From assembly GCF_039545095.1 (NCBI RefSeq), contig NZ_BAABRS010000001.1, positions 1,054,001-1,118,000 of the forward strand: a stretch of 64,000 bases of DNA, given 5' to 3'. The position numbers and the translations under genes were made by a program. The notes beneath the pieces were generated by a model. That model did no database searches, was not told where the DNA came from, and saw only the letters and a list, made by a program, of their open reading frames with translations. The first letter of the stretch is position 1; each line of letters begins with the position of its first letter. Below are positions 18,731 through 30,957 of the stretch, in pieces. Source of the DNA: Fodinibius salicampi (GTDB lineage Bacteria; Bacteroidota; Rhodothermia; Balneolales; Balneolaceae).

Positions 18731-20110
18731 CTAGTCTTTTTGTTCTTCCTGCTCTTCCCCATCTCCATCACTTATCTGATTTCTTTCCCTTATATCCTGT
18801 GGAAGCGTTTTACTGGATTTAGCCCCCAGCTCCCGCAACATTTCTACTTGCCGTACCACATTACCCCGTCCCTCTGAAAGCCGTCCCATAGCCTCATCAT
18901 AGCTCTCCTGAGTCTGGCGGATACGCTGACCGATATCCTGCATGCTTTCTACGAACAGCACAAACTTATCATAGAGCGCTCCGCCGCGATCGGCAATTTC
19001 CTGTGCATTCTTGCTCTGGTATTCCTGCTTCCACACGCTGTCGATGGTGGCCAGGGTGGCCAGCAGTGTAGAGGGACTTACAATCACGATATTCTGATCA
19101 AAGGCATCGTAATAAAGACTGGCGTCCTGCTGCAGGGCCACGCCAAAAGCGGATTCGATAGGTACGAACATCAATACGAAATCGGGACTGTTGCCGCCGT
19201 AAAGCTGCTCATAGTTTTTACTGCTGAGTCCCTTCACATGACTACGCAATGAATTGACATGCTGTTTCAAAGCCCGTTGACGCTCCTCGTCATCATCTGC
19301 AGAAGTATAACGCTCGTAGGCTGTCAGCGATACCTTGGAGTCAATCACCAACCGCTTTTCATCTGGCAGGTGCACCACCACATCCGGATGCAGGCGTCGC
19401 CCGTCGTCGGTAGTATGGTGCTCCTGGAGCTCATATTCCCGACCCTTTGTAAGTCCGGATTTTTCGAGAATACGTTGTAAAATTACCTCTCCCCAGCTTC
19501 CCTGAGTCTTAGATTCTCCTTTAAGTGCCTTGGTTAAGTCCTTGGCTTCTTCGGCCATCTGCTGATTCATCTCCTTCAGATGCTTGAGGTGCTGCTCCAG
19601 CGAACTACGTCCTTTGATATCCTCTTTGTGGGTTTCCTCTACCTTTTTCTTGAACTCCTCCATCTTTTCGCCGAGCGGCTTCAGGAGCTGATCCAGCTTC
19701 TCTTTGTTCTGCTCAGTAAACTTTTGAGACTTCTCTTCTAAAATCTTATTCGCCAGATTCTCGAACTCATCCTTGAACCGCTCCTGCAGGTTTTCCATCT
19801 CCTCTTTCTGCTCGGAGAGCCGTTCTTTTAGATTGCGATAATCAGCCTTGAGTGAGGCCAGTTGCTTTTCGGCTTCGTTGGCGCGGCTCTGCTCTTTCTG
19901 GTAATTATTTTTCGCTTCTGAAACCTCCGCATCGAGTCGCTCGTTCCGCTCTTCGAGCCGGGATATGGTCTGCATCGCCTCTCCCCGCTCCTGTTCCAGG
20001 GCATCGGCTTCTTCTTTGGTTAGTGCCTGACTGCTTTTGTATTTAAAATGGGCGATGGCGTAACCTAGAATTAGGCCTACGAGTATAAACAGGATTGAAA
20101 TCAGTTCCAT
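18731..20110 (-). CDS. rmuC: DNA recombination protein RmuC homolog
   Basis: RmuC is thought to limit DNA inversions and rearrangements between short repeats. The 459 aa protein has an N-terminal membrane helix (LISILFILVGLILGYAIA), a long coiled coil (about 30-190), and the RmuC nuclease-like core. Core motifs are SWGEVILQRILEKSGL, HPDVVVHLPDEKRLVIDSKV and FVPIESAFGVALQ. The acidic C-terminal tail is variable. A seven-base tandem array lies 24 bases upstream of the start codon and could affect the promoter. Confidence 0.93.
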   Translation of the reverse strand: MELISILFILVGLILGYAIAHFKYKSSQALTKEEADALEQERGEAMQTISRLEERNERLDAEVSEAKNNYQKEQSRANEAEKQLASLKADYRNLKERLSEQKEEMENLQERFKDEFENLANKILEEKSQKFTEQNKEKLDQLLKPLGEKMEEFKKKVEETHKEDIKGRSSLEQHLKHLKEMNQQMAEEAKDLTKALKGESKTQGSWGEVILQRILEKSGLTKGREYELQEHHTTDDGRRLHPDVVVHLPDEKRLVIDSKVSLTAYERYTSADDDEERQRALKQHVNSLRSHVKGLSSKNYEQLYGGNSPDFVLMFVPIESAFGVALQQDASLYYDAFDQNIVIVSPSTLLATLATIDSVWKQEYQSKNAQEIADRGGALYDKFVLFVESMQDIGQRIRQTQESYDEAMGRLSEGRGNVVRQVEMLRELGAKSSKTLPQDIRERNQISDGDGEEQEEQKD

Positions 20111-20133
20111 GTGTGTGGGTTACAAGTTACAGG

Positions 20134-20203
20134 TTTTAGCATTTAGCATTTAGCATTTAGTATTTAGTATTTAGTATTTAGTATTTAGTATTTAGTATTT
20201 AGG
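20134..20203. repeat. Tandem array of ten 7-bp units (ATTTAGC/ATTTAGT)
   Basis: Ten consecutive 7-bp units run without interruption. The first is TTTTAGC, then two copies of ATTTAGC, six of ATTTAGT, and a final ATTTAGG. The array starts 24 bases upstream of the rmuC start codon. Such arrays expand and contract by slippage. Confidence 0.95.
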
Positions 20204-20512
20204 CTGGCGATTTTGAATAGCGATGTCAAGAATTAATTTAAATATTTGTTATTGGTTATCCGGTTCGGTAGTTGCTTAAGCCAAGGAGAACCTTCAACAT
20301 TTAACTTTTAGCCTGCAACTACTATATGAACACTTCTTTTATCTTGGAGAAGAAGCCTTGGTATAGTGGAGCAATATCACAGTTCTGGCATCCAGTTTCC
20401 AGTATGGTTTGTAGATGTAAAAGCTTAAGATATAGAGGTGGGGTGACGGCATGGTGGCAGACCATCTATAGTTTCTAATTAGCTCAATTCAAATCTTTAC
20501 TAATAGTTTCGA

Positions 20513-20605
20513 ACTCGTATAAGTTACAAACTTGGAGGAGTTTTATATTTTCATTTAGACATGCGGCTGGCCCATACTCGTCCAAGTTGCAAACTTGAAC
20601 GAGTA
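20513..20605. repeat. Pair of REP-like palindromes
   Basis: The copy at 20575-20605 has TACTCGT and ACGAGTA ends, AAGTT/AACTT inner arms and a three-base loop, with one mismatch in a 14-bp stem. The copy at 20513-20541 is the same palindrome in a decayed form (ACTCG...GGAGT ends, AAGTT/AACTT core). They lie in the same orientation 33 bases apart, as in REP/BIME elements mobilised by REP-associated transposases. No such transposase is in the window. Confidence 0.75.
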
Positions 20606-20648
20606 TTAGGAACCAACTTTTCCATCTCACTCCTCCTGCCCTTACTTA

Positions 20649-20786
20649 CTCAGTCTCCTTGAGATCATAATCCCGGACACTACGAGATACTAAGCTCATA
20701 CACTCCGAGATTAGTTTCTCAGACACTATGAGTAAGTAATCTCAGTCAGTAAGGGATATACTTCTCAGTCCGACCGAGCAGTGTTA
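20649..20786. repeat. Six degenerate 23-bp tandem units, each a small hairpin
   Basis: Six units begin at 20649, 20672, 20695, 20718, 20741 and 20764, an exact 23-base period. Each starts with a 15-base hairpin of the form CTCrGwCACTmyGAG (for example CTCATACACTCCGAG, CCCGGACACTACGAG, CTCAGACACTATGAG) and ends with an 8-base AT-rich spacer. Base changes are scattered but the CTC/GAG ends are largely kept. Confidence 0.85.
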
Positions 20787-20953
20787 AATGCTCCCCAGGC
20801 TATAAATCATGCAGGATCTCTTAGAACAGTCTTAAGGTTAACCTTCACAAAGCGCCGCTAAACAGTTCTTGGATTTAGTGTATTCGATATCTAATATCAG
20901 TTAATATGGCAAGTGATATTTCAATCCTACTTCTACTTAAAACGTAAAAAGCT

Positions 20954-21163
20954 ATGCGACATCAAAACTGGCAGTGTCCGAAGTGCAATAACAGGGAATT
21001 TGAGACGGGGGTAGTTTCCGGGACCGGTGGATTTTTATCCAAGTTTTTTAACATTCAAACCCAAAAATTCACCACCATTACCTGCACAAGATGTACCTAT
21101 ACGGAAATGTATAAAGGCGAAAGCAGTACCATCGAAAATATTTTCGATTTCTTCGGTAACTAA
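20954..21163 (+). CDS. Small zinc-ribbon protein (DUF2082-like)
   Basis: This is a 69 aa protein with two CxxC knuckles, CPKC (about residues 8-11) and CTRC (44-47), which together form a zinc ribbon. Between them lies GVVSGTGGFLSKFFNIQTQKF. This order and length match the small nucleic-acid-binding Zn-ribbon proteins of the DUF2082/YpzJ kind. Function is not established; a role in RNA or DNA binding is assumed from the fold. It stands alone in the repeat-rich region. Confidence 0.75.
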   Translation: MRHQNWQCPKCNNREFETGVVSGTGGFLSKFFNIQTQKFTTITCTRCTYTEMYKGESSTIENIFDFFGN

Positions 21164-21242
21164 GAATCTTATAGGGTCAATTCGACGATCACGGTACAAT
21201 TGTGAAGCTCATACGAAGAATTATCAGGTGGTGAGTTTTTTG

Positions 21243-21272
21243 GTTCATTTTTTCCTCATTGAAAAAATGAAC
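21243..21272. repeat. Perfect 12-bp hairpin
   Basis: GTTCATTTTTTC (21243-21254) and GAAAAAATGAAC (21261-21272) are perfectly complementary around the loop CTCATT. The flanks TTTTTG and CCAAAG add partial complementarity. It lies about 80 bases after the zinc-ribbon gene. No T-run follows the stem, so it looks like a dispersed palindromic repeat rather than a terminator. Confidence 0.7.
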
Positions 21273-21354
21273 AGCCAAAGAATAAAAAGATAGTTAAAAG
21301 GTTTCGGTCCTTACACTGACCCCTTCTTGTTCCTCTCCCCTCAGAATTCGAAAC

Positions 21355-21376
21355 CCTGAATGAGTGTAAATTCAGG
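21355..21376 (-). terminator. Weak hairpin after the RlpA-like gene
   Basis: CCTGAAT (21355-21361) pairs with ATTCAGG (21370-21376) around an 8-base loop, 14 bases past the stop of the minus-strand RlpA-like gene. On that strand only a short GTTTCG follows, so terminator function is uncertain. Confidence 0.3.
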
Positions 21377-21390
21377 CTAAAAGATAGCTA

Positions 21391-21825
21391 TCATTCACAT
21401 TCTAAATCCTGAATCGGCCTTTCCCCTTCTTTGACCAGATAGAGCTCCACCTCGGCAAGCCCATCATCAATAATATTAATTTTTTGGGCTGCCTTGCGGG
21501 AGAGATCAATGATGCGATCCCCTGTAAAAGGTCCCCGATTATTAATGCGCACCTCGACGGATTTCTCATTTTCAACATTAACTACGCGGACAATGGTATT
21601 AAAGGGAAGGGTTTTATGTGCCGCCGTGAGTGTTTCTGTATCGTACCTCTCTCCACTTGCGGTCAGCTTGCCGTGGAAATATTCACCATACCAGCTAGCA
21701 GTGCCGGAATCTATGAAGCAGTCGTCCTCCTGGAACGTGTCGCTCTCCGGAATACAACAGGATATAGTAAACAGGCTTGAAATCACTACCAAGTATAATG
21801 GGATATATAAAGACTTATTGATCAT
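21391..21825 (-). CDS. RlpA-like double-psi beta-barrel lipoprotein
   Basis: From ATG 21825 this is a 144 aa secreted protein with a signal peptide ending in a lipobox-like FTISC. The mature part is an RlpA/DPBB domain: GTASWYGEYFHGKLTASGE, then LTAAHKTLPFNT, VRVVN, RINNRGPFTGDRIIDLS and AAQKINI. The Asp in GDRIIDLS and the His in AAHKTLPF are the usual active-site residues of RlpA lytic transglycosylases, which cut peptidoglycan strands lacking stem peptides. There is no SPOR domain, so septal targeting is not expected. A longer open frame to 21918 precedes the signal peptide and is probably untranslated. Confidence 0.85.
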   Translation of the reverse strand: MINKSLYIPLYLVVISSLFTISCCIPESDTFQEDDCFIDSGTASWYGEYFHGKLTASGERYDTETLTAAHKTLPFNTIVRVVNVENEKSVEVRINNRGPFTGDRIIDLSRKAAQKINIIDDGLAEVELYLVKEGERPIQDLECE

Positions 21826-21919
21826 ACTATTAGTGATATTGCTATAGCAACGCCTTTGTTTCGCAAATAATAAAAAAATGACCTTGCCGAGGATCATGAT
21901 ATATGATTTTAGCCACAAC

Positions 21920-21939
21920 CGCGGGAATGAATTCCCGCG
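21920..21939. repeat. Perfect 9-bp GC-rich hairpin
   Basis: CGCGGGAAT (21920-21928) and ATTCCCGCG (21931-21939) form a perfect stem with a two-base loop. It stands out from the AT-rich surroundings. It lies about 95 bases upstream of the RlpA-like start codon in a 500-base gap that otherwise holds no gene. It looks like a dispersed palindromic element. Confidence 0.7.
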
Positions 21940-22145
21940 CTATTGATTGGAATAAATTATTGCAAGTTCATCACAAGCGCAGAATTTTCAATCCTACGCC
22001 TATTTAACACAGAATATTATCTATATACAATCAACATTGTATTTCTGGGAAGGAGAACAAGCCTGCGCTACGAAGCCGTGTTTTTGGGCGTAGTTGTGTG
22101 GACGTGTCAAAATAAGAGCAATAACTTTGTTAAGGTACCGGACCA

Positions 22146-22235
22146 GACTACTCCGACCCTCCGAGTGGACTACTACAGAGCTTTTAGTAGTAAGAACAGA
22201 AGGTCCGAGTAGTCTACTACGAGCGAATGTAGTAG
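22146..22235. repeat. Nested inverted-repeat element with three stems
   Basis: Outer arms GACTACTCCGACC (22146-22158) and GGTCCGAGTAGTC (22202-22214) pair with one mismatch. Inside lies a second stem, ACTACTA (22169-22175) with TAGTAGT (22185-22191). Adjoining the outer arm is a third stem, CTACTAC (22214-22220) with GTAGTAG (22229-22235). All share the CTACTAC/GTAGTAG motif. The block is 93 bases upstream of the RtcB relic. Confidence 0.8.
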
Positions 22236-22327
22236 TGCTTGATCGGAATATATTCAGCCGTGTGGAATGTTTCGCAGCTTGTACGGTTTTACATTAAAGG
22301 CTGTAACCAACAAGATAACACCGCTTA

Positions 22328-22747
22328 ATGGGCCACTTTGAATTTATCGAACATACCGCCGATAAAGGATTCCGGGTGGAAGGGACTTATCTCCGGGAAC
22401 TCTTCGATACATCTGTACATGGATTGGCAAAGTTACTTCGGGAAGCATGTACCAGCTCATACGTGCTCACCGGCACGTCTAAAGGGATGGAATCCACCTT
22501 CGGCTCTACCTGTCACGGGGCCGGGAGAACGATGTCACGAACGGCCGCAAAAAAAAGTAGATGCCGCCGAACTTATAAGTTCGGCTCAATAAAAATGAGA
22601 TACACGTACAGGCAGCTTCCAAGAGCGGGGTGGCCGAAGCCCCCCTTGGCCTATAAAGAAGTGCTCACCGTAGTAAATACCGTTGAGCAGGCAGGACTAG
22701 CGGAGAAAGCTGTTAAAATGCGTCCCGTTGCCGTTATCAAGGGATAA
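22328..22747 (+). pseudogene. Decayed archease-RtcB chimera (RNA ligase operon relic)
   Basis: The first 37 or so codons read as the start of archease (FEFIEHTADKGFRVEG, then a Leu-Phe-Asp stretch). The frame then runs directly into the last third of RtcB: SSYVLTGTSKGMESTFGST and CHGAGRTMSR, the HGAGR box holding the guanylylated His of active RtcB. RtcB likeness then jumps frames: KKVDAAELISSA after an 8-A run, IHVQAASKSGVAEAP, and LAYKEVLTVV after a 6-C run, ending in AVIKG at the normal C-terminus. Two homopolymer frameshifts and a stop separate these parts, and most of archease and RtcB is deleted. The product is not functional. Confidence 0.85.
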
Positions 22748-22925
22748 ATTTATCCTTAAATATTCTGCCCCCCCCAATGTATAGCCTGTACTATATTCAA
22801 ATCCAATTATATAGCACTGATTCGTCCTTTATTTCTCCTTGCAGTTTTACTGATCTATATTGACATTAGCATGCCTTCACTGGAAAGGTAAAAAGAGTTA
22901 CGACTTCAAAATTAAGCCAATTAAT

Positions 22926-23459
22926 ATGAATTCTAATCTTCTCATCCTTAAATTAAACCAGCTTGAGCACTGGCTTGAAGAAACAAAGGGACATTACGGA
23001 AAATATCCCCTGCGATGGCTGGGGTATATGGTAGTGGCAATAGTAATGGTAATGAGCAATCTCCTGGCCCTGATTCGCTGGCCCATCCACAGTCTGATCA
23101 AGGTCTTTCAGACCACCCAGTCAAATGTGGAAGTTGCCATACATAGCAGCCAGCCCAACGACGTGGATGCGGATCTGCTTGATGAAATTCTAAAAAAACG
23201 ACCCAAAGTGTTGGTTGACTTCTGGGCGGCGTGGTGTGGCCCCTGCATTATGATGAACGAGCCGCTGAAGAAAATAGCGGTATCAAAGGATACGGACTGT
23301 ACGATTGTGAAGGTAAATACCGTGAAATATTCTCAGCTGACGGAGCAATATAATGTCAAAGGGTTACCGACCCTCGTCCTGTTTGAAAAAGGGAAAGAAG
23401 TAAAGCGTTATGCCGGGGCACTCTCCTACACTGAACTGAAGGATTTTATAAACAGTTAA
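22926..23459 (+). CDS. Membrane-anchored thioredoxin-family protein
   Basis: This is a 177 aa protein from ATG 22926; an upstream in-frame start at 22860 adds residues without a family match. One membrane helix (WLGYMVVAIVMVMSNLLALI) anchors the N-terminus. The thioredoxin domain lies in the C-terminal 110 residues with the redox centre WAAWCGPCIMMNEPL, the cis-proline loop VKGLPTLVLF, and a C-terminal strand (RYAGALSY). The CGPC centre suggests a reducing thioredoxin rather than an oxidase. The substrate is unknown. Confidence 0.85.
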   Translation: MNSNLLILKLNQLEHWLEETKGHYGKYPLRWLGYMVVAIVMVMSNLLALIRWPIHSLIKVFQTTQSNVEVAIHSSQPNDVDADLLDEILKKRPKVLVDFWAAWCGPCIMMNEPLKKIAVSKDTDCTIVKVNTVKYSQLTEQYNVKGLPTLVLFEKGKEVKRYAGALSYTELKDFINS

Positions 23460-23467
23460 CTGAAATA

Positions 23468-25120
23468 TTATTTTTTGGTTTGGGATTCGGAAATCGGCAA
23501 AAGATTTTCCAAACTAAGGACAAGCATTCTACTGGATTGCGTAAATAGCCTATTTATCATCACCATTGAAGTCGCTTCCAGATCATTCAACGCTCCTCTT
23601 TTGGCAGCTTCTGAACTTGCCCTGATGCTCTGCCTATCGTACGTATCCACTTGCTTCAGTATTTGATCCGGTACTTTATCAGGTTCTTTTTCACTAATGA
23701 GCAGTGGCTCCAGATCATTAAATAGTTCACTTAGACGATTTTGAAATACCTCAAGTTGACTGTTTAAGAATGAATTATTCGCCAGTTCAAAGTCCTCTAA
23801 GTCACTGCGGACCTCCTTTAAATTTTTGGTTGCATTCATAATACTCCGGCTGGATCTAAGATATTCTTCCATCTTTTTTGATTCTTCCGGTTCCAGTTCC
23901 GTGGTATTTATCCTGGCATAGTATTCAAAAATATTACCGTGCAGTTCCTTTAGCTGTCCATAAACCTGATCAGCAGTGCCCATAATACGATGCTGTAATG
24001 CAGGTTCTTCGGCATCAGAGAGCACCTTCGGTATTTTCAAATCATATAAAATGATCAGATATCGACGGGATTCAATAAACTGGTGCACGATCTCCTTTTT
24101 AAATGCCTCCTGAGCAGCATCGGGTATATCCGGAGAAGTATTTTGGATATAGTGCGTCAGGATCCGCCGGGGTTCCTGGAATAAAGTGTTTAACTTATCG
24201 GTAAGCTGTGTTATAAACGGAAGAAAAAGCATAATGCCTATGATGTTGAAGAGCGTATGAAATAACGCAATGCCCATAATGACATTCTCTTGCCATCCAA
24301 AACCTACTTGTATAAACCATACAACTACCGGGAGCAGTAAAAATACTACTATCCCGGTCACCAGATTAAAAGTGAGGTGTCCGAGTGCCACCCTCTTTTT
24401 TATAGGGATGCCGCCCACAGAGCCGAGCACAACCGTAACTGTTGTCCCCACATTCGCGCCGATCACCATAGCGGCCCCGGATTCAAATCCCAAAATCCCA
24501 CCATTAATGGATGCCAATATAATAGCTATGGTTGCCGAACTCGACTGCATTATAGCAGTAAGTATGATCCCGGCCAATAGAAAAGTTCCTGTACCATAAC
24601 CGGCCAATATGGCTACATCAAACAACTGAGTAATCTGATCAACACTGGTTTTCATATAGTCCAAACCATGGAACAGAAATCCGAAGCCTATCAAAAGTTT
24701 GCTTACATTGAGGTATCGCGGAGAGGAAGAAAAGAAAATAAGTCCCAGCCCGCCAATGGCAATTAACGGCAGAGCAAAACTCTCTATGCTTATTTTAAAT
24801 CCAAAAAAGGCGACTATCCACGCAGTAAAGGTGGTGCCTATGTTTGCACCTAAGATAACGCCCATAGCATTGCCCAGACTCATGATCCCTGCCCCAACGA
24901 ACGCTAACACCATTAAGTTGACGGCAGAGCTGCTTTGCAGGATGGCAGTGCTGAATGTACCCGAGAGTACCGCTGAAAACCGAGTTTCGGTATAGCGCCG
25001 GATTAATGTTTTAAAAGCTTTTCCAGCCAGTTCTTTGATGGAATCTTCCATCAGGTAAATACCGAACAGGAATATACCGAGTCCGGCCAGCAGCCGCCAA
25101 ATATCAAAGGTTTCACTCAT
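23468..25120 (-). CDS. Na/Pi cotransporter family protein with PhoU-like C-terminus
   Basis: This 550 aa membrane protein has two inverted repeats of the NptA/PhoU-associated type. QSSSAVNLMVLAFVGAG and MQSSSATIAIILASINGG are the paired QSSSA motifs of Na/Pi symporters, and GANIGTT and GANVGTT complete each repeat. About ten membrane segments cover residues 1-310. The remaining 240 residues form a soluble helical PhoU-like domain. It likely takes up phosphate with sodium, as expected for a salt-adapted organism. It is convergent with the thioredoxin gene, with only 8 bases between them. Confidence 0.92.
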   Translation of the reverse strand: MSETFDIWRLLAGLGIFLFGIYLMEDSIKELAGKAFKTLIRRYTETRFSAVLSGTFSTAILQSSSAVNLMVLAFVGAGIMSLGNAMGVILGANIGTTFTAWIVAFFGFKISIESFALPLIAIGGLGLIFFSSSPRYLNVSKLLIGFGFLFHGLDYMKTSVDQITQLFDVAILAGYGTGTFLLAGIILTAIMQSSSATIAIILASINGGILGFESGAAMVIGANVGTTVTVVLGSVGGIPIKKRVALGHLTFNLVTGIVVFLLLPVVVWFIQVGFGWQENVIMGIALFHTLFNIIGIMLFLPFITQLTDKLNTLFQEPRRILTHYIQNTSPDIPDAAQEAFKKEIVHQFIESRRYLIILYDLKIPKVLSDAEEPALQHRIMGTADQVYGQLKELHGNIFEYYARINTTELEPEESKKMEEYLRSSRSIMNATKNLKEVRSDLEDFELANNSFLNSQLEVFQNRLSELFNDLEPLLISEKEPDKVPDQILKQVDTYDRQSIRASSEAAKRGALNDLEATSMVMINRLFTQSSRMLVLSLENLLPISESQTKK

Positions 25121-25308
25121 AGTTTAAGAACTCAATGCAATTTTGCATCCGAAATTCAATAAATATCTGTTCTATTCAAAATATTCTGAACTTTCCTTTT
25201 CTTAATATATCAATGGTTAAAGGTTAAATAGATGGTGTCTCTAATATGATTATATATATTTATAATTTATTCTCTTCAATATGTCCCTGAATCAACTTCA
25301 AAATTACT

Positions 25309-25800
25309 ATGACTAACGATTATACCGTCCCCGCCCAAACAAGTATCGGACATGTTCACCTGAAAGTCAGCGATCTACAGCAGGCACTCGATTTCTACTG
25401 TAGGCTCCTTGGCTTCGAAATTACTACTACCTATGGTGACCAAGCCGCCTTTATATCCGCCGGCGGATACCATCACCATATCGGACTCAATACCTGGCAC
25501 AGCAAAGACGGACCTCAGGCTCCGAAAAACAGTACGGGGCTGTTTCATACCGCCATCCGCTACCCTACTCGGAGCGATCTTGCTGAAATACTGGTGCGGT
25601 TGAGAAGTGAAAGTTATCCCCTGACCGGCGCGAGCGATCACGGGGTTTCGGAGGCGTTGTATCTGAATGATCCCGACGGGAATGGCGTGGAACTTTACTG
25701 GGATCGTCCCCGGGAAGAATGGCCATTTAATAAAGATGGTTCTCTAAATATGTATACCCGTCCGCTGGATTTGGTAGATCTGCTACAGGAAATTGAATAA
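25309..25800 (+). CDS. VOC (glyoxalase/ring-cleavage dioxygenase) superfamily protein
   Basis: This is a 163 aa protein with the two beta-alpha-beta-beta-beta units of the vicinal oxygen chelate fold. The first starts IGHVHLKVSDLQQALDFYCR; the second starts TGLFHTAIRYPTRSDL. Metal ligands are probably His in GHVHLK and LFHTAI, plus Glu in NGVELYWDRP. The sequence resembles the catechol-2,3-dioxygenase-like CatE/YfiE group, but the substrate cannot be read from it. Confidence 0.85.
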   Translation: MTNDYTVPAQTSIGHVHLKVSDLQQALDFYCRLLGFEITTTYGDQAAFISAGGYHHHIGLNTWHSKDGPQAPKNSTGLFHTAIRYPTRSDLAEILVRLRSESYPLTGASDHGVSEALYLNDPDGNGVELYWDRPREEWPFNKDGSLNMYTRPLDLVDLLQEIE

Positions 25801-25897
25801 TTAGTCAAAAATACTTGTTTCAAAGGGAACAAATAAACATGCTGTGACTTTGAGCAGTATAAGCATTAAATATTGATAGAATACACAGTCCCGTTTT

Positions 25898-26950
25898 ATG
25901 GAACTATATCTTCGTTTGATCGGAGGTATTATCCTCCTTCTTCTTAATGCATTTTATGTAGCTACTGAGTTTGCGTTAACCCGGCTTCGTCAATATGACC
26001 GGAATGAACTCGAGGATAATGCCGGGCTTAACCGCGCCTGGGAAATGACTGAGACGCTGGAAATCTACCTCACCTCTTGTCAGATTGGCATTACGACTAC
26101 CAGTATTTTATTAGGCGTTATTGCAGAGCCGGCCGTTACAGAATTAATTGAACTACTAATCACTGCGGATGCCATAGGCTCCATTTCCTCCCATACCATC
26201 TCTATTATCCTGTCAGTAACAATAATAAATCTCGTTCATACCATTTGGGGAGAACAAGCCCCTACTTACCTGGGGGTGGAAAAAGCCGAAACGGTAGCAC
26301 GCCATTGTGCATATCCGCTTTACTGGTGGACATATGCGATTTATCCGGTTCTTGTATTTGGCGATTATGTTACAAAAGCTACCCTCCGGTTGTTTGGTAT
26401 CCAAATGGATCGCTCTTGGTTGAAAGGAGAAAGTGCTTCCGGATCCGGTGATATTCGATCCGAAATGGTTGACCTGCTCAAAACCGAGGGCGTCTCAGGC
26501 GACCGCCGGGAAGAGGTACTCAATGCCCTGGATATTGATAATATTGCTGTGCAGGAAATCATGATTCCACGGGAAAAAATTATTTGCTTAAGTACAGAAA
26601 AATCATTTTCCGATAATCTCAACATTATCCGTGAGCATATGCATGCACGCTATCCTTTAGTTGGTGAAACTATCGATGATGTTAAGGGTGTACTCTATAC
26701 TCCCCAAATAACCGCTAATATGAAGGAGCTGCTAAATGGAGGTAAAGAACTTGACGATTTTGACTGGCCCAGGATGATTGTATCTAAGAACCTTCCGATA
26801 AGTAAGCTCATTGACGAATTTCAGGTTGAGCACCAAGAGTTGGCTATGGTAAAAGAAAATGGACGTATTGTAGGTTTAGTTACCCTTACTGATGCCTTCG
26901 AAACGATTATTGGAAGTGCCGAAGATCCGCTGGACTTACTCAATAACTGA
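25898..26950 (+). CDS. CNNM/DUF21 membrane protein with CBS domains
   Basis: This is a 350 aa protein with an N-terminal CNNM (DUF21) membrane domain of about 190 residues (NAFYVATEFALTRLRQYDR, SCQIGITTTSILLGVIAE). A cytosolic CBS pair follows (about 205-345; VQEIMIPREKIICLSTEKS, and AMVKENGRIVGLVTLTDAFE). The family includes Mg/Co efflux proteins (CorC/MpfA/YhdP). The C-terminal CorC_HlyC domain of the longer members is absent, so ion-transport coupling is less certain. It is flanked by plain intergenic sequence. Confidence 0.9.
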   Translation: MELYLRLIGGIILLLLNAFYVATEFALTRLRQYDRNELEDNAGLNRAWEMTETLEIYLTSCQIGITTTSILLGVIAEPAVTELIELLITADAIGSISSHTISIILSVTIINLVHTIWGEQAPTYLGVEKAETVARHCAYPLYWWTYAIYPVLVFGDYVTKATLRLFGIQMDRSWLKGESASGSGDIRSEMVDLLKTEGVSGDRREEVLNALDIDNIAVQEIMIPREKIICLSTEKSFSDNLNIIREHMHARYPLVGETIDDVKGVLYTPQITANMKELLNGGKELDDFDWPRMIVSKNLPISKLIDEFQVEHQELAMVKENGRIVGLVTLTDAFETIIGSAEDPLDLLNN

Positions 26951-27008
26951 TTATATTCCCAAAAACAGGTTCCACTCTTCAAAAGAGTATATCTGGATAG
27001 CTTTCAAT

Positions 27009-27036
27009 AAAGGCCATTCATTTGGAATGGTTTCCG
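27009..27036 (+). terminator. Weak terminator after the CNNM gene
   Basis: CCATTC (27014-27019) pairs with GAATGG (27025-27030) around a short loop, followed by TTTCCGTTT. The stem is only six bases and lies about 60 bases after the gene. It may also affect the DsbA-family gene downstream. Confidence 0.3.
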
Positions 27037-27104
27037 TTTGAACTTGTTTACCTTAGTAGCTATACAAAACGTACTACACTAAGAATTTAATATTGATAAT
27101 TGAT

Positions 27105-27791
27105 ATGAAAGTCGAAATTTGGTCCGATATAATGTGCCCCTTTTGCTATATAGGCAAGCGGCGATTTGAGCAAGCTCTTAATCAATTTGAATATGCCGAT
27201 GAAGTTAAAGTCGAGTGGCGAAGTTTCCAGCTTAATCCCGATATGGAAACAGCCCCCAATGCCAGCATCAATGAATACCTGGCCGAATCCAAGGGCTGGT
27301 CGTTGAATGAAGCCAGGCAGATGAACGAACGGGTTACTAAGATGGCTGCCGAAGAGGGGCTGGAATATCATATGGATCAAGCTGTGGTTGCCAATTCATT
27401 TGATGCGCATCGCCTCATCCAGTTTGCCAAAAGCAATGATTTAGGCGATGAAGCAGAGGAAACACTCTTTCAAGCATACTTTACCGAAGGGAAGAATATG
27501 GACGATACAGATACGCTGGTAGAAATTGCCGAACAGATTGGACTGGTAACGCAAGAAACACGCGAAGTACTGAAAAGCGACCAATATGCTAAAGCTGTTC
27601 AGCATGATATCCAGACCGCCCAAGCGATGAACATTCGCGGCGTACCCTTCTTTCTATTTAACAGAAAGTTTGCCGTTTCTGGTGCCCAGGAATCAGAAAC
27701 CTTTTTAAAAGCACTTAAACAGTCATGGAATGACTGGGTTGAAAAACAAGAAGCAGAAGAAGAACCCGCCACAGAAAAACAGGCCAACTAA
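27105..27791 (+). CDS. DsbA-family oxidoreductase (FrnE-like)
   Basis: From ATG 27105 this is a 228 aa cytosolic thioredoxin-fold protein. The redox motif CPFC in DIMCPFCYIGKRRFEQAL, the helical insertion with SFDAHRLIQFAKSNDLG, and the cis-Pro loop RGVPFFLFNRKFAVSG are typical of the FrnE/2-hydroxychromene-2-carboxylate isomerase-like group. FrnE-type proteins act in disulfide exchange under oxidative stress. No signal peptide is present. A TTG four codons upstream is in frame but less likely. A relic of its 3' end lies near 29.75 kb, so this gene was once duplicated. Confidence 0.9.
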   Translation: MKVEIWSDIMCPFCYIGKRRFEQALNQFEYADEVKVEWRSFQLNPDMETAPNASINEYLAESKGWSLNEARQMNERVTKMAAEEGLEYHMDQAVVANSFDAHRLIQFAKSNDLGDEAEETLFQAYFTEGKNMDDTDTLVEIAEQIGLVTQETREVLKSDQYAKAVQHDIQTAQAMNIRGVPFFLFNRKFAVSGAQESETFLKALKQSWNDWVEKQEAEEEPATEKQAN

Positions 27792-27958
27792 CGTTTAAAT
27801 CTGCTTTTTGAAGGGGCTGGACTGTCTTTCCAATGTCACGATGAAATACATGTCGTTGCTTCCAGGCCCCTCCTTTTACCTCTTTGCAGTGTTCCAGATC
27901 TTTATTAAATGTATCACTAGGGTTTCGGCAATCGTTCAACACCTCAATTAAACTTCTC
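27792..27958 (-). pseudogene. 3' relic of a phospholipase D-family gene (cls paralog)
   Basis: Read on the minus strand, this stretch codes for FNKDLEHCKEVKGGAWKQR, matching the C-terminal FNEDLEHCEEVKGETWKRR of the intact gene at 29791-30957. At the DNA level the two are similar over about 165 bases, starting just after the dsbA stop. Single-base indels break the frame in at least two places, and the original stop codon is lost. Only the last 50 or so codons remain. It is the left trace of a duplication. Confidence 0.8.
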
Positions 27959-28252
27959 ATCCGAAATTCATTAAATACCTGTGTAGTATTTCATTCCCTC
28001 AATCCTTTTATTATTTAATATGAAATGAGGATTGGATATAAGAATCCAGCGATATATATCAGGAAATAAGCAATTTTTAGCATATTTTATACTTTGCTGT
28101 GTATATCTTAAAACGAGTAGCTTAGGTTGAAAATACTTTCTCTCCTCAAGGTGATGACTGGAACAACCTTTCTGAGGTTGCTATACTTATATCAGGTTCA
28201 GCTTACGAAATAACATTGTTAGCATTTCATAAATATTAACTGGGATACCATC
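27959..28252. other. Upstream region of the diadenylate cyclase gene
   Basis: No gene is seen. A bulged hairpin, CCTCA-AGGT (28144-28152) with ACCT-TTC-TGAGG (28166-28177), lies about 75 bases before the cyclase start and could be a leader structure. No known riboswitch class was recognised. Confidence 0.4.
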
Positions 28253-28597
28253 TTGATCGAACCTGCTTTTATATTACTTCAAAGCATCGAAGATACCTTT
28301 TATACCTTTCTTCAAAATATCCGTATTGTTGATCTGCTGGATATTATTATCATCTCCTTTTTTCTCTATATCGTACTGAACTGGCTGCGTCAGAGTGCTT
28401 CGCGCCGTAATTTACTTAGTTTTTTGGTGATCTTAATTGTTTATGTCATTGCCCGCTTTACCTGGATGTACCTTACGGAACTACTTATCGAAGGACTTTT
28501 CATTATAATTTTGATTGGTATTGTCGTTGTATTTCAATCTGATATGCGACGGATCATCGACCGCATCAGCAACTGGCGTTTTTTTGACATCTCCTAG
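28253..28597 (+). CDS. N-terminal membrane part of CdaA (upstream of the TAG)
   Basis: This frame of 114 codons starts at TTG 28253, the only plausible start after an in-frame TAG at 28220. It encodes three membrane segments, LLDIIIISFFLYIVLNWL, LLSFLVILIVYVIARF and LLIEGLFIIILIGIVVVF, then DMRRIIDR, the link to the catalytic domain in CdaA proteins. It ends at TAG 28595-28597 after FFDIS. By itself it cannot make cyclic di-AMP. Confidence 0.55.
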   Translation: MIEPAFILLQSIEDTFYTFLQNIRIVDLLDIIIISFFLYIVLNWLRQSASRRNLLSFLVILIVYVIARFTWMYLTELLIEGLFIIILIGIVVVFQSDMRRIIDRISNWRFFDIS

Positions 28598-28639
28598 CCC
28601 GATTCCACGGACATTTCAACCAGTATTATTACAGAAGCG

Positions 28640-29734
28640 GTGGCCAAGATGGCGGATCAGCGAATCGGAGCCCTCATTGTGCTAGAGGGTAGAGAAGACT
28701 TGGACCGGCACGTTCATGGCGGTATTGAGCTAGATGGCAAGATCACAATTCCGCTGCTGCACAGTATCTTTAACACTAATGCACCCGGCCACGATGGAGC
28801 AGTGCTCAGCGACGGACAGCGAATTTTAAAGTTTGGGGTCCATTTACCCCTTTCGACCAATTTATATAAACTGTCGCGCGGCGGTACACGGCACACAGCT
28901 GCGCTGGGTCTTTCGGAAAAGTGTGATGCCCTGGTAATTGTGGTTTCGGAAGAACGGGGAACTATCAGTATTGCTGAGAACGGACAGATCAAAGAACTGG
29001 AATCCCACAGCGATCTCAAGAAACATCTTGATGATTTTTGGGCTGAATATTATCAATCAAAAACAACATCCAACAAACAATGGGGCGAACGCCGAAGCCT
29101 AAAAACTGCTTTGGCTGCAGGCAGCCTTGCCTTTATTCTATGGTTATCCTTTGCCTACCCTTCGGAAACTGTATATCGAACCTATGCCGTGCCAATTGAA
29201 TACAGCAACCTCGAATCTACCTCTTATGCCCTTCAGGATACGGTGCCACTGCAAGCGCGGATTACCCTCTCGGGTTCTGAGCAGGCCTTCCGTACGTTTG
29301 ACCCCTCAGAGCTAATTATATCATTTGATCTGGCCTCCGAAGAGGTTGAAGACCTTGAGCTCGATATCGACAGCGATAATATTAATCTTCCGGCGGGATT
29401 GCAGTTTTTCGAGGCCTCCCCGTCCGTGCTTCAACTTAAAAAGCAATACTTTGTACCTGTAAACGTCCCGGTCAAAGTGCCCGTGACAGGTACCATAGCA
29501 GAACATCTGCAATTTCAACCTGTCGTCCCCTCTCCTGAAATCATAACCATCTTGGTGGATACCGCCGCTGCAACAATCGATTCGGTTTTGACCGAGCCCG
29601 TAGATCTAAGCCAAGTTGAAGAACAAACGGTACAACAAAAAATGCTCCAGCTGGAAGGTGACTCTTTTCGCCTGTCTGAACAAGCTTCCCCAAATATTAC
29701 CGTAACTATAAACGTGCGTAAGATTCAATCATAA
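28640..29734 (+). CDS. Diadenylate cyclase domain plus YbbR repeats (downstream of the TAG)
   Basis: This open frame of 364 codons starts at GTG 28640 (ATG at 28649) and is in the same frame as the membrane part, 42 bases after the TAG. It keeps most of the DAC catalytic domain, then a membrane helix at about residues 150-170 and two YbbR-like units with the periplasmic Pro-Val repeats VPVNVPVKVPVTG. If translated alone it would lack the first strands of the DAC fold and its membrane anchor. Confidence 0.5.
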   Translation: MAKMADQRIGALIVLEGREDLDRHVHGGIELDGKITIPLLHSIFNTNAPGHDGAVLSDGQRILKFGVHLPLSTNLYKLSRGGTRHTAALGLSEKCDALVIVVSEERGTISIAENGQIKELESHSDLKKHLDDFWAEYYQSKTTSNKQWGERRSLKTALAAGSLAFILWLSFAYPSETVYRTYAVPIEYSNLESTSYALQDTVPLQARITLSGSEQAFRTFDPSELIISFDLASEEVEDLELDIDSDNINLPAGLQFFEASPSVLQLKKQYFVPVNVPVKVPVTGTIAEHLQFQPVVPSPEIITILVDTAAATIDSVLTEPVDLSQVEEQTVQQKMLQLEGDSFRLSEQASPNITVTINVRKIQS

Positions 29735-29790: not shown

Positions 29791-30957
29791 TTAAATCTGC
29801 TGTTTAAAGGGCCTGCTAAGTCCTTCCAATGCCCGACGAAACACATTTCGCCGCTTCCAGGTCTCTCCCTTCACCTCTTCACAGTGTTCCAGATCTTCAT
29901 TGAAATGAGTTACCAGGGTTTCGGCCAGTTCTTCACTAAGTGCCACCAGATTTACTTCATCATCTTTAAGCATTGACCGATGGTTGAAATTCGCAGAACC
30001 AATACATGAAACAAAATCATCAATCACAATAATCTTGGAGTGCAGCATTGTTTTTTGATATTGCCAGAGAGTAACACCGGCATCCAACAGATCATTAAAA
30101 TGATCTCCACCTGCAATATTGGCCACCCGCTTATCCATGTGCTTACCCGGCATCATAATCTGTACATTCACTCCACGCTTAGCCGCATCGCACAGTCGCT
30201 GCACCATTGGCTTATTAGGATTAAAGTAAGCGGTGGTAATAAATATACTTTCCTGAGCCATTTGTATAAGCGTTTTATACAAAATAACGATATCACTCCA
30301 ACGTACTGAAGCGGAGGTCCGAACAACTTGCAGGGGAATATCCTGGATTGAATGATCGTCCGGGAGTGGTGTTTTACCATTATTTTCATGCCAGGGAAGA
30401 CCAATTTTAAGATTTCTTCCCGCTTCAATCCAGTTTTCCAGAAAAGCCGACTGTAGTCCCTTTACAGCTGGACCTTCAATGCGGAAGTGTGTTTCTCTCC
30501 ATTCGGAAGGATTGCGCGCGTCCCCCTCCCATTCTTCTGCAATCCCTACTCCCCCGGTAAAAGCAACGCAACCATCACAAATTAATACTTTGCGATGGGT
30601 ACGGTTATCACTCTTCCAGACTTTCCATTGCTTGAATGGGCGAAACCATTCTACCTCTACCCCACTGGTTTCCATCAATGCAACCAGTTCTTCCGGCATA
30701 AAGGCCGCCCCGAAACTGTCTAAAATAACCCGTACCTCTAAGCCTTCCTCGGCTTTTTTTGCCAGTATTCGGGCAAAACGATCAGCGATATTTCCTTCCC
30801 AATAGACGAATGTAAGGAAATCGACCTGGTGTTCGGCGGCTTTAATAGCCTTCAGCATTGCCGGAAAAATTTCATCCCCATTCTTTAGTACTTTTACGGC
30901 ATTCCCCTGTGAAAAAGGAACGCCCACCGTCGCTTCCAGGGTTTCTTTATAATCCAT
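29791..30957 (-). CDS. Phospholipase D-family protein, cardiolipin synthase-like
   Basis: The 388 aa protein has two HKD motifs: THRKVLICDG and LHSKIIVIDD, each with the HxK(x)4D pattern, each followed by GG/GS and asparagine (FTGGVGIAEEW, IGSANFNHRS). This is the double-HKD layout of cardiolipin synthases ClsB/ClsC and related phosphatidyl transferases. There is no N-terminal membrane helix, as in ClsB-type enzymes. The likely reaction is condensation of phosphatidylglycerol to cardiolipin, but a hydrolase is possible. A 3' relic of a paralog lies at 27792-27958. Confidence 0.88.
   Translation of the reverse strand: MDYKETLEATVGVPFSQGNAVKVLKNGDEIFPAMLKAIKAAEHQVDFLTFVYWEGNIADRFARILAKKAEEGLEVRVILDSFGAAFMPEELVALMETSGVEVEWFRPFKQWKVWKSDNRTHRKVLICDGCVAFTGGVGIAEEWEGDARNPSEWRETHFRIEGPAVKGLQSAFLENWIEAGRNLKIGLPWHENNGKTPLPDDHSIQDIPLQVVRTSASVRWSDIVILYKTLIQMAQESIFITTAYFNPNKPMVQRLCDAAKRGVNVQIMMPGKHMDKRVANIAGGDHFNDLLDAGVTLWQYQKTMLHSKIIVIDDFVSCIGSANFNHRSMLKDDEVNLVALSEELAETLVTHFNEDLEHCEEVKGETWKRRNVFRRALEGLSRPFKQQI

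Follow-up and report, generated by a model that had tools for sequence, protein, structure and literature searches.

Relation to known CdaA and CdaR systems

CdaA and CdaR are usually separate proteins that interact by their membrane helices, and fused CdaA-CdaR proteins have been reported in some streptococci (A5LQF8, E1M7C3, and V8IIN0) (PMC10243994). We analyzed a stretch of 64,000 nucleotides (hereafter the window, 64 kb) from a relative of Fodinibius roseus (Balneolaceae), with a genome close to Fodinibius (3.94 Mb in 11 contigs, 98.5% complete), in which a CdaA-CdaR-like frame is interrupted by one TAG codon. Compared with CdaA (DacA, membrane diadenylate cyclase, TIGR00159), the window fusion has the same CdaA_N helices and DAC domain in the same order, but it adds a C-terminal membrane helix and a YbbR part, carries RHT for RHR and PGHDGA for PLHDGA, and is an accessory copy alongside a canonical CdaA. 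As in CdaR/YbbR, one membrane helix precedes the YbbR domain, although CdaR is normally its own protein, and the window genome also encodes a separate one elsewhere. The streptococcal fusions, as described in PMC10243994, have the same domain order of CdaA followed by CdaR, and the architecture is therefore known in kind. The present fusion differs from them in being a paralogue with a variant catalytic motif, found in Balneolaceae, in two scattered genomes from other classes, and in a single Bdellovibrionales MAG. We found no description of such an accessory, motif-variant, mobile form in the literature searched, which is not proof of novelty. We consider it probable that an accessory CdaA-CdaR-like paralogue moved into the window locus and was recently broken by one nonsense change, with the canonical CdaA still making cyclic di-AMP.

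Architecture of the fusion frame

Translation of positions 28253-29734 (+) gave 114 codons, a TAG (28595-28597), 378 codons, and a TAA, with no further stop. The N-terminal piece (28253-28594, +) contains the CdaA-type membrane helices. The CdaA_N domain covers residues 22-98, upstream of the TAG (PF19293, E 2e-6), and hydropathy placed approximately three helices at residues 25-94 or thereabouts, ahead of the DAC domain. The DAC domain lies directly after the stop (28598-29020, +; PF02457, E 4e-36). A single membrane helix (29099-29155, +; residues 283-301 by hydropathy) stands ahead of the YbbR-like (CdaR) domain (29465-29710, +; PF07949, E 1e-6, residues 290-371 of the second piece). PF19293 and PF02457 scored above their cut-offs both in the two pieces of the window gene and in the intact protein of F. 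roseus, and the NCBIfam CdaA model TIGR00159 matched both pieces, each below its whole-protein cut-off. Among solved structures, CdaA catalytic domains (7ojs, 6huw, and others) come closest. An AlphaFold2 model of the intact F. roseus fusion, built from five sequences, had a mean pLDDT of 57, which was too poor for use. The TTG start at 28253-28255 is conserved in relatives: F. roseus, G053, and a Balneolaceae MAG (G213) have TTG at this position, and G030 has GTG. Translation, Pfam, and hydropathy thus bear out the order of CdaA helices, TAG, DAC domain, helix, and YbbR repeats that the initial annotation had read in one frame.

Homologues in relatives

The homologue in F. roseus is uninterrupted and conserved codon for codon, and the window frame is therefore not a chance reading. 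The two proteins share 92% of amino acids before the stop and 90% after it, with no indel and a dN/dS of 0.075. Unbroken fusion frames of 480-549 codons were found in ten other genomes (G003, G007 [F. salsisoli], G009, G011 [F. roseus], G021, G030, G053, G213, and, more distantly, G162 and the Bdellovibrionales MAG), and the likewise distant homologue in G146 is a 414-codon frame; those of G013 and G337 are truncated where the contig stops. A single unbroken frame joining CdaA and CdaR therefore occurs in the relatives, and in the window gene it is divided by the TAG. In the codon alignment, no relative has a stop at this site, which is CAG in F. roseus and other sense codons in 9 further relatives. 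Because the relatives are uninterrupted and none has the stop, these alignments indicate that the CdaA-YbbR fusion is a real protein family and that the stop is particular to the window genome. The homologues in relatives, fused and all with a sense codon at this site, uphold the earlier proposal of a natural CdaA-CdaR fusion.

The fusion is missing from 7 of the 12 genomes of the genus, and it is dispensable on that count. A DAC gene is present in all 49 near-complete relatives searched, and the fusion is an additional copy; G146, unlike the other fusion carriers, gave no second DAC copy in the search made.

An intact canonical cyclase in the same genome

A search of the window genome with the DAC model returned a second gene, as the initial annotation had advised looking for. 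This gene (G000:C2:63800) encodes a canonical full-length CdaA of 272 aa and lies just after folP. The genome also encodes a separate 333-aa protein resembling YbbR/CdaR, on contig C3, and a PgpH-type 7TMR-HDED phosphodiesterase. Since a canonical CdaA is present and the fusion is an extra copy, losing the fusion need not deprive the cell of cyclic di-AMP, which is presumably still made by the intact canonical enzyme, whose activity we infer. The earlier idea that the only such cyclase might be lost, which would be striking because cyclic di-AMP is often essential, does not hold, the housekeeping copy being in place beside folP. The interest then lies in the fusion family that is intact in relatives and joins a diadenylate cyclase domain and its regulator in one chain.

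In a relative, locus L042 (G029:C1:2035001) gave a weak DAC match (55 bits) in a 387-aa frame that resembles neither CdaA nor the fusion.

Variant catalytic motif of the fusion family

We surveyed the motifs of the DAC domain. The DGA motif is present in the window gene, as GHDGA, and the RHR motif is absent and replaced by RHT. All 13 distinct fusion proteins carry GTRH[T/A], the ones from G162, G146, and the Bdellovibrionales MAG among them, whereas the 34 ordinary copies all have RHR (as GTRHR or GLRHR). PGHDG is likewise the form in the fusions, versus PLHDGA in most ordinary copies. In a tree of DAC domains, a branch with strong support (100/99) sets the fusions apart. L001 and L013, which a pattern match (NRHTPLHDGA) had put forward as members of the fusion group, were rejected because the tree groups them with the canonical copies. 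The RH[T/A] change marks the whole family and predates the stop.

Replacement of DGA or RHR by alanines abolishes activity in CdaS and CdaM (PMC4568413, PMC13022847), the RHR alteration in these studies being a change of all three residues. In the literature searched, we found no report on the effect of the third RHR residue alone. The RH[T/A] motif and the separate branch suggest that the fusions may no longer be ordinary cyclases, being either altered or inactive. We tentatively propose, at rather less than even probability, that the RH[T/A] CdaA-YbbR fusions form a distinct, horizontally moving DAC subfamily with lost or changed cyclase activity, which might act as a nucleotide-sensing partner of canonical CdaA or make another product, the window showing one lineage in the course of losing it. 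As an extra copy beside canonical CdaA that deviates from a motif held necessary for catalysis, the family offers a simple way of asking whether a tethered CdaR combined with an altered RHR motif acts as a regulator or as a new enzyme.

Location and probable horizontal transfer

In G003, G009, and G021, a SIMPL-domain gene flanks the fusion, and a GDSL esterase and an ABC transporter come next; in G003 and G021, the other flank of the fusion is a threonine-dehydratase-like gene. The SIMPL flank is kept in F. salsisoli and F. roseus. In the window genome, G001, and G002, the dehydratase and SIMPL genes adjoin, with no fusion between them. The window fusion instead lies between a DsbA-like gene and a PLD-type (cardiolipin-synthase-like) gene (29791-30957, -; PF13091), a resident neighbor whose orthologues in G001, F. 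salsisoli, and F. roseus have no fusion alongside. The dS to F. roseus was 0.49-0.76 for the fusion, whereas nearly all other orthologue pairs, among them PLD, SIMPL, and canonical CdaA, gave approximately 1.8 or were saturated. DNA similarity to F. roseus extends from approximately 40 bases before the start codon up to the stop codon.

Because the fusion stands outside its ancestral locus and its dS is far below that of neighboring genes, it probably moved horizontally after the species split. An accessory CdaA paralogue fused to a CdaR-like YbbR part would have arrived at the present site in this way, most likely by transfer between Fodinibius-like lineages. A 135-bp remnant copy of the PLD gene 3' end (27795-27929, -), which blastn and the direct repeats D1-D3 place at approximately 80% identity to 29791-29925, is a possible footprint of insertion or duplication. 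A search of viral contigs for a transfer vehicle gave no relative of the fusion, and plasmids gave only ordinary CdaA/CdaS-like matches, none covering 80%.

The RmuC gene (18731-20110, -) has a dS to F. roseus of 0.94, lower than most, and its F. roseus counterpart stands approximately 3 kb away from the fusion gene. We did not conclude that RmuC and the fusion were transferred together, RmuC being 79% identical in G001 and generally conserved.

Meaning and age of the stop codon

Since the split from F. roseus, the window branch has accumulated 27 non-synonymous and 77 synonymous changes and the F. roseus branch 26 and 56, respectively (Fisher P 0.42). With the F. roseus branch as the baseline, neutral evolution over at least 5% of the window branch was disfavored (P 0.03), as was neutral evolution over 10% (P 0.002). 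No second lesion and no non-synonymous rise were seen on the window branch, which gave no sign of long decay. These counts indicate that the fusion frame was under normal constraint until very recently. The stop would accordingly be very young, not real, or not effective, and the observations fit a very recent stop, but also an erroneous base call or continued translation of the frame; we prefer the first.

An assembly base error in a gene that is intact in the organism would explain a lone substitution in an otherwise undamaged frame that is under normal constraint throughout. We consider this unlikely, since the contig is 1.83 Mb long in a nearly complete assembly, where single-base errors are expected to be rare, and a C-to-T nonsense change is a frequent natural event. 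Somewhat less likely again is a frame still in use, by read-through of the TAG or by separate production of the DAC-YbbR part through re-initiation, although the downstream part shows no relaxed constraint and a GTG at 28640 lies about 42 bases past the TAG. No CUA-anticodon tRNA was found among the 40 tRNAs of the genome, and TAG terminates 4 of 40 long ORFs in the window, 3 of which match Pfam families. TAG is thus an ordinary stop here; neither a suppressor tRNA nor a reassignment of TAG, as expected for a recoded stop, was found, and no relative has a stop here. The tRNA set and the well-supported genes ending in TAG disfavor read-through by recoding. In regards to re-initiation, inspection gave no clear ribosome-binding site for the GTG, and the resulting ORF (28640-29734, +), which lacks the N-terminal helices, would truncate the DAC domain at its start; we saw no sign of its use. 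The initial annotation had left a knock-out, a sequencing error, and read-through side by side; our analysis favors the recent knock-out and counts against read-through.

We infer that the stop is real in the organism and that translation ends at the TAG. One nonsense change would very recently have hit the linker that separates the DAC domain from the membrane helices. Translation would be expected to leave a membrane stub of 114 residues, with the DAC-YbbR part absent or present in traces, and the canonical CdaA would keep up cyclic di-AMP. An adaptive split, in which the truncated stub regulates the canonical CdaA, finds some precedent in the interaction of CdaA and CdaR via membrane helices in Firmicutes (PMC10243994). 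It is nevertheless very improbable, since no relative retains such a stub and the remainder of the frame shows no decay, which would make the split too young for a visible stub role.

Surrounding region

The Rfam search gave no match in the window, including the interval 21207-21273. There, approximately 60 bases recur, at 77-98% identity, at many sites in F. roseus, F. salsisoli, and G001, as a short dispersed repeat. The region 20110-28250 has few long genes and holds remnants (an archease-RtcB chimera and the copy of the PLD 3' end) near the broken fusion; it is possibly a zone of gene decay or rearrangement. The chimeric ORF (22328-22747, +) joins in frame the 35 N-terminal residues of archease and the 98 C-terminal residues of RtcB and is apparently a deletion remnant of an archease-rtcB pair. 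The genome gave no other match to RtcB, so this RNA ligase appears to have been lost.
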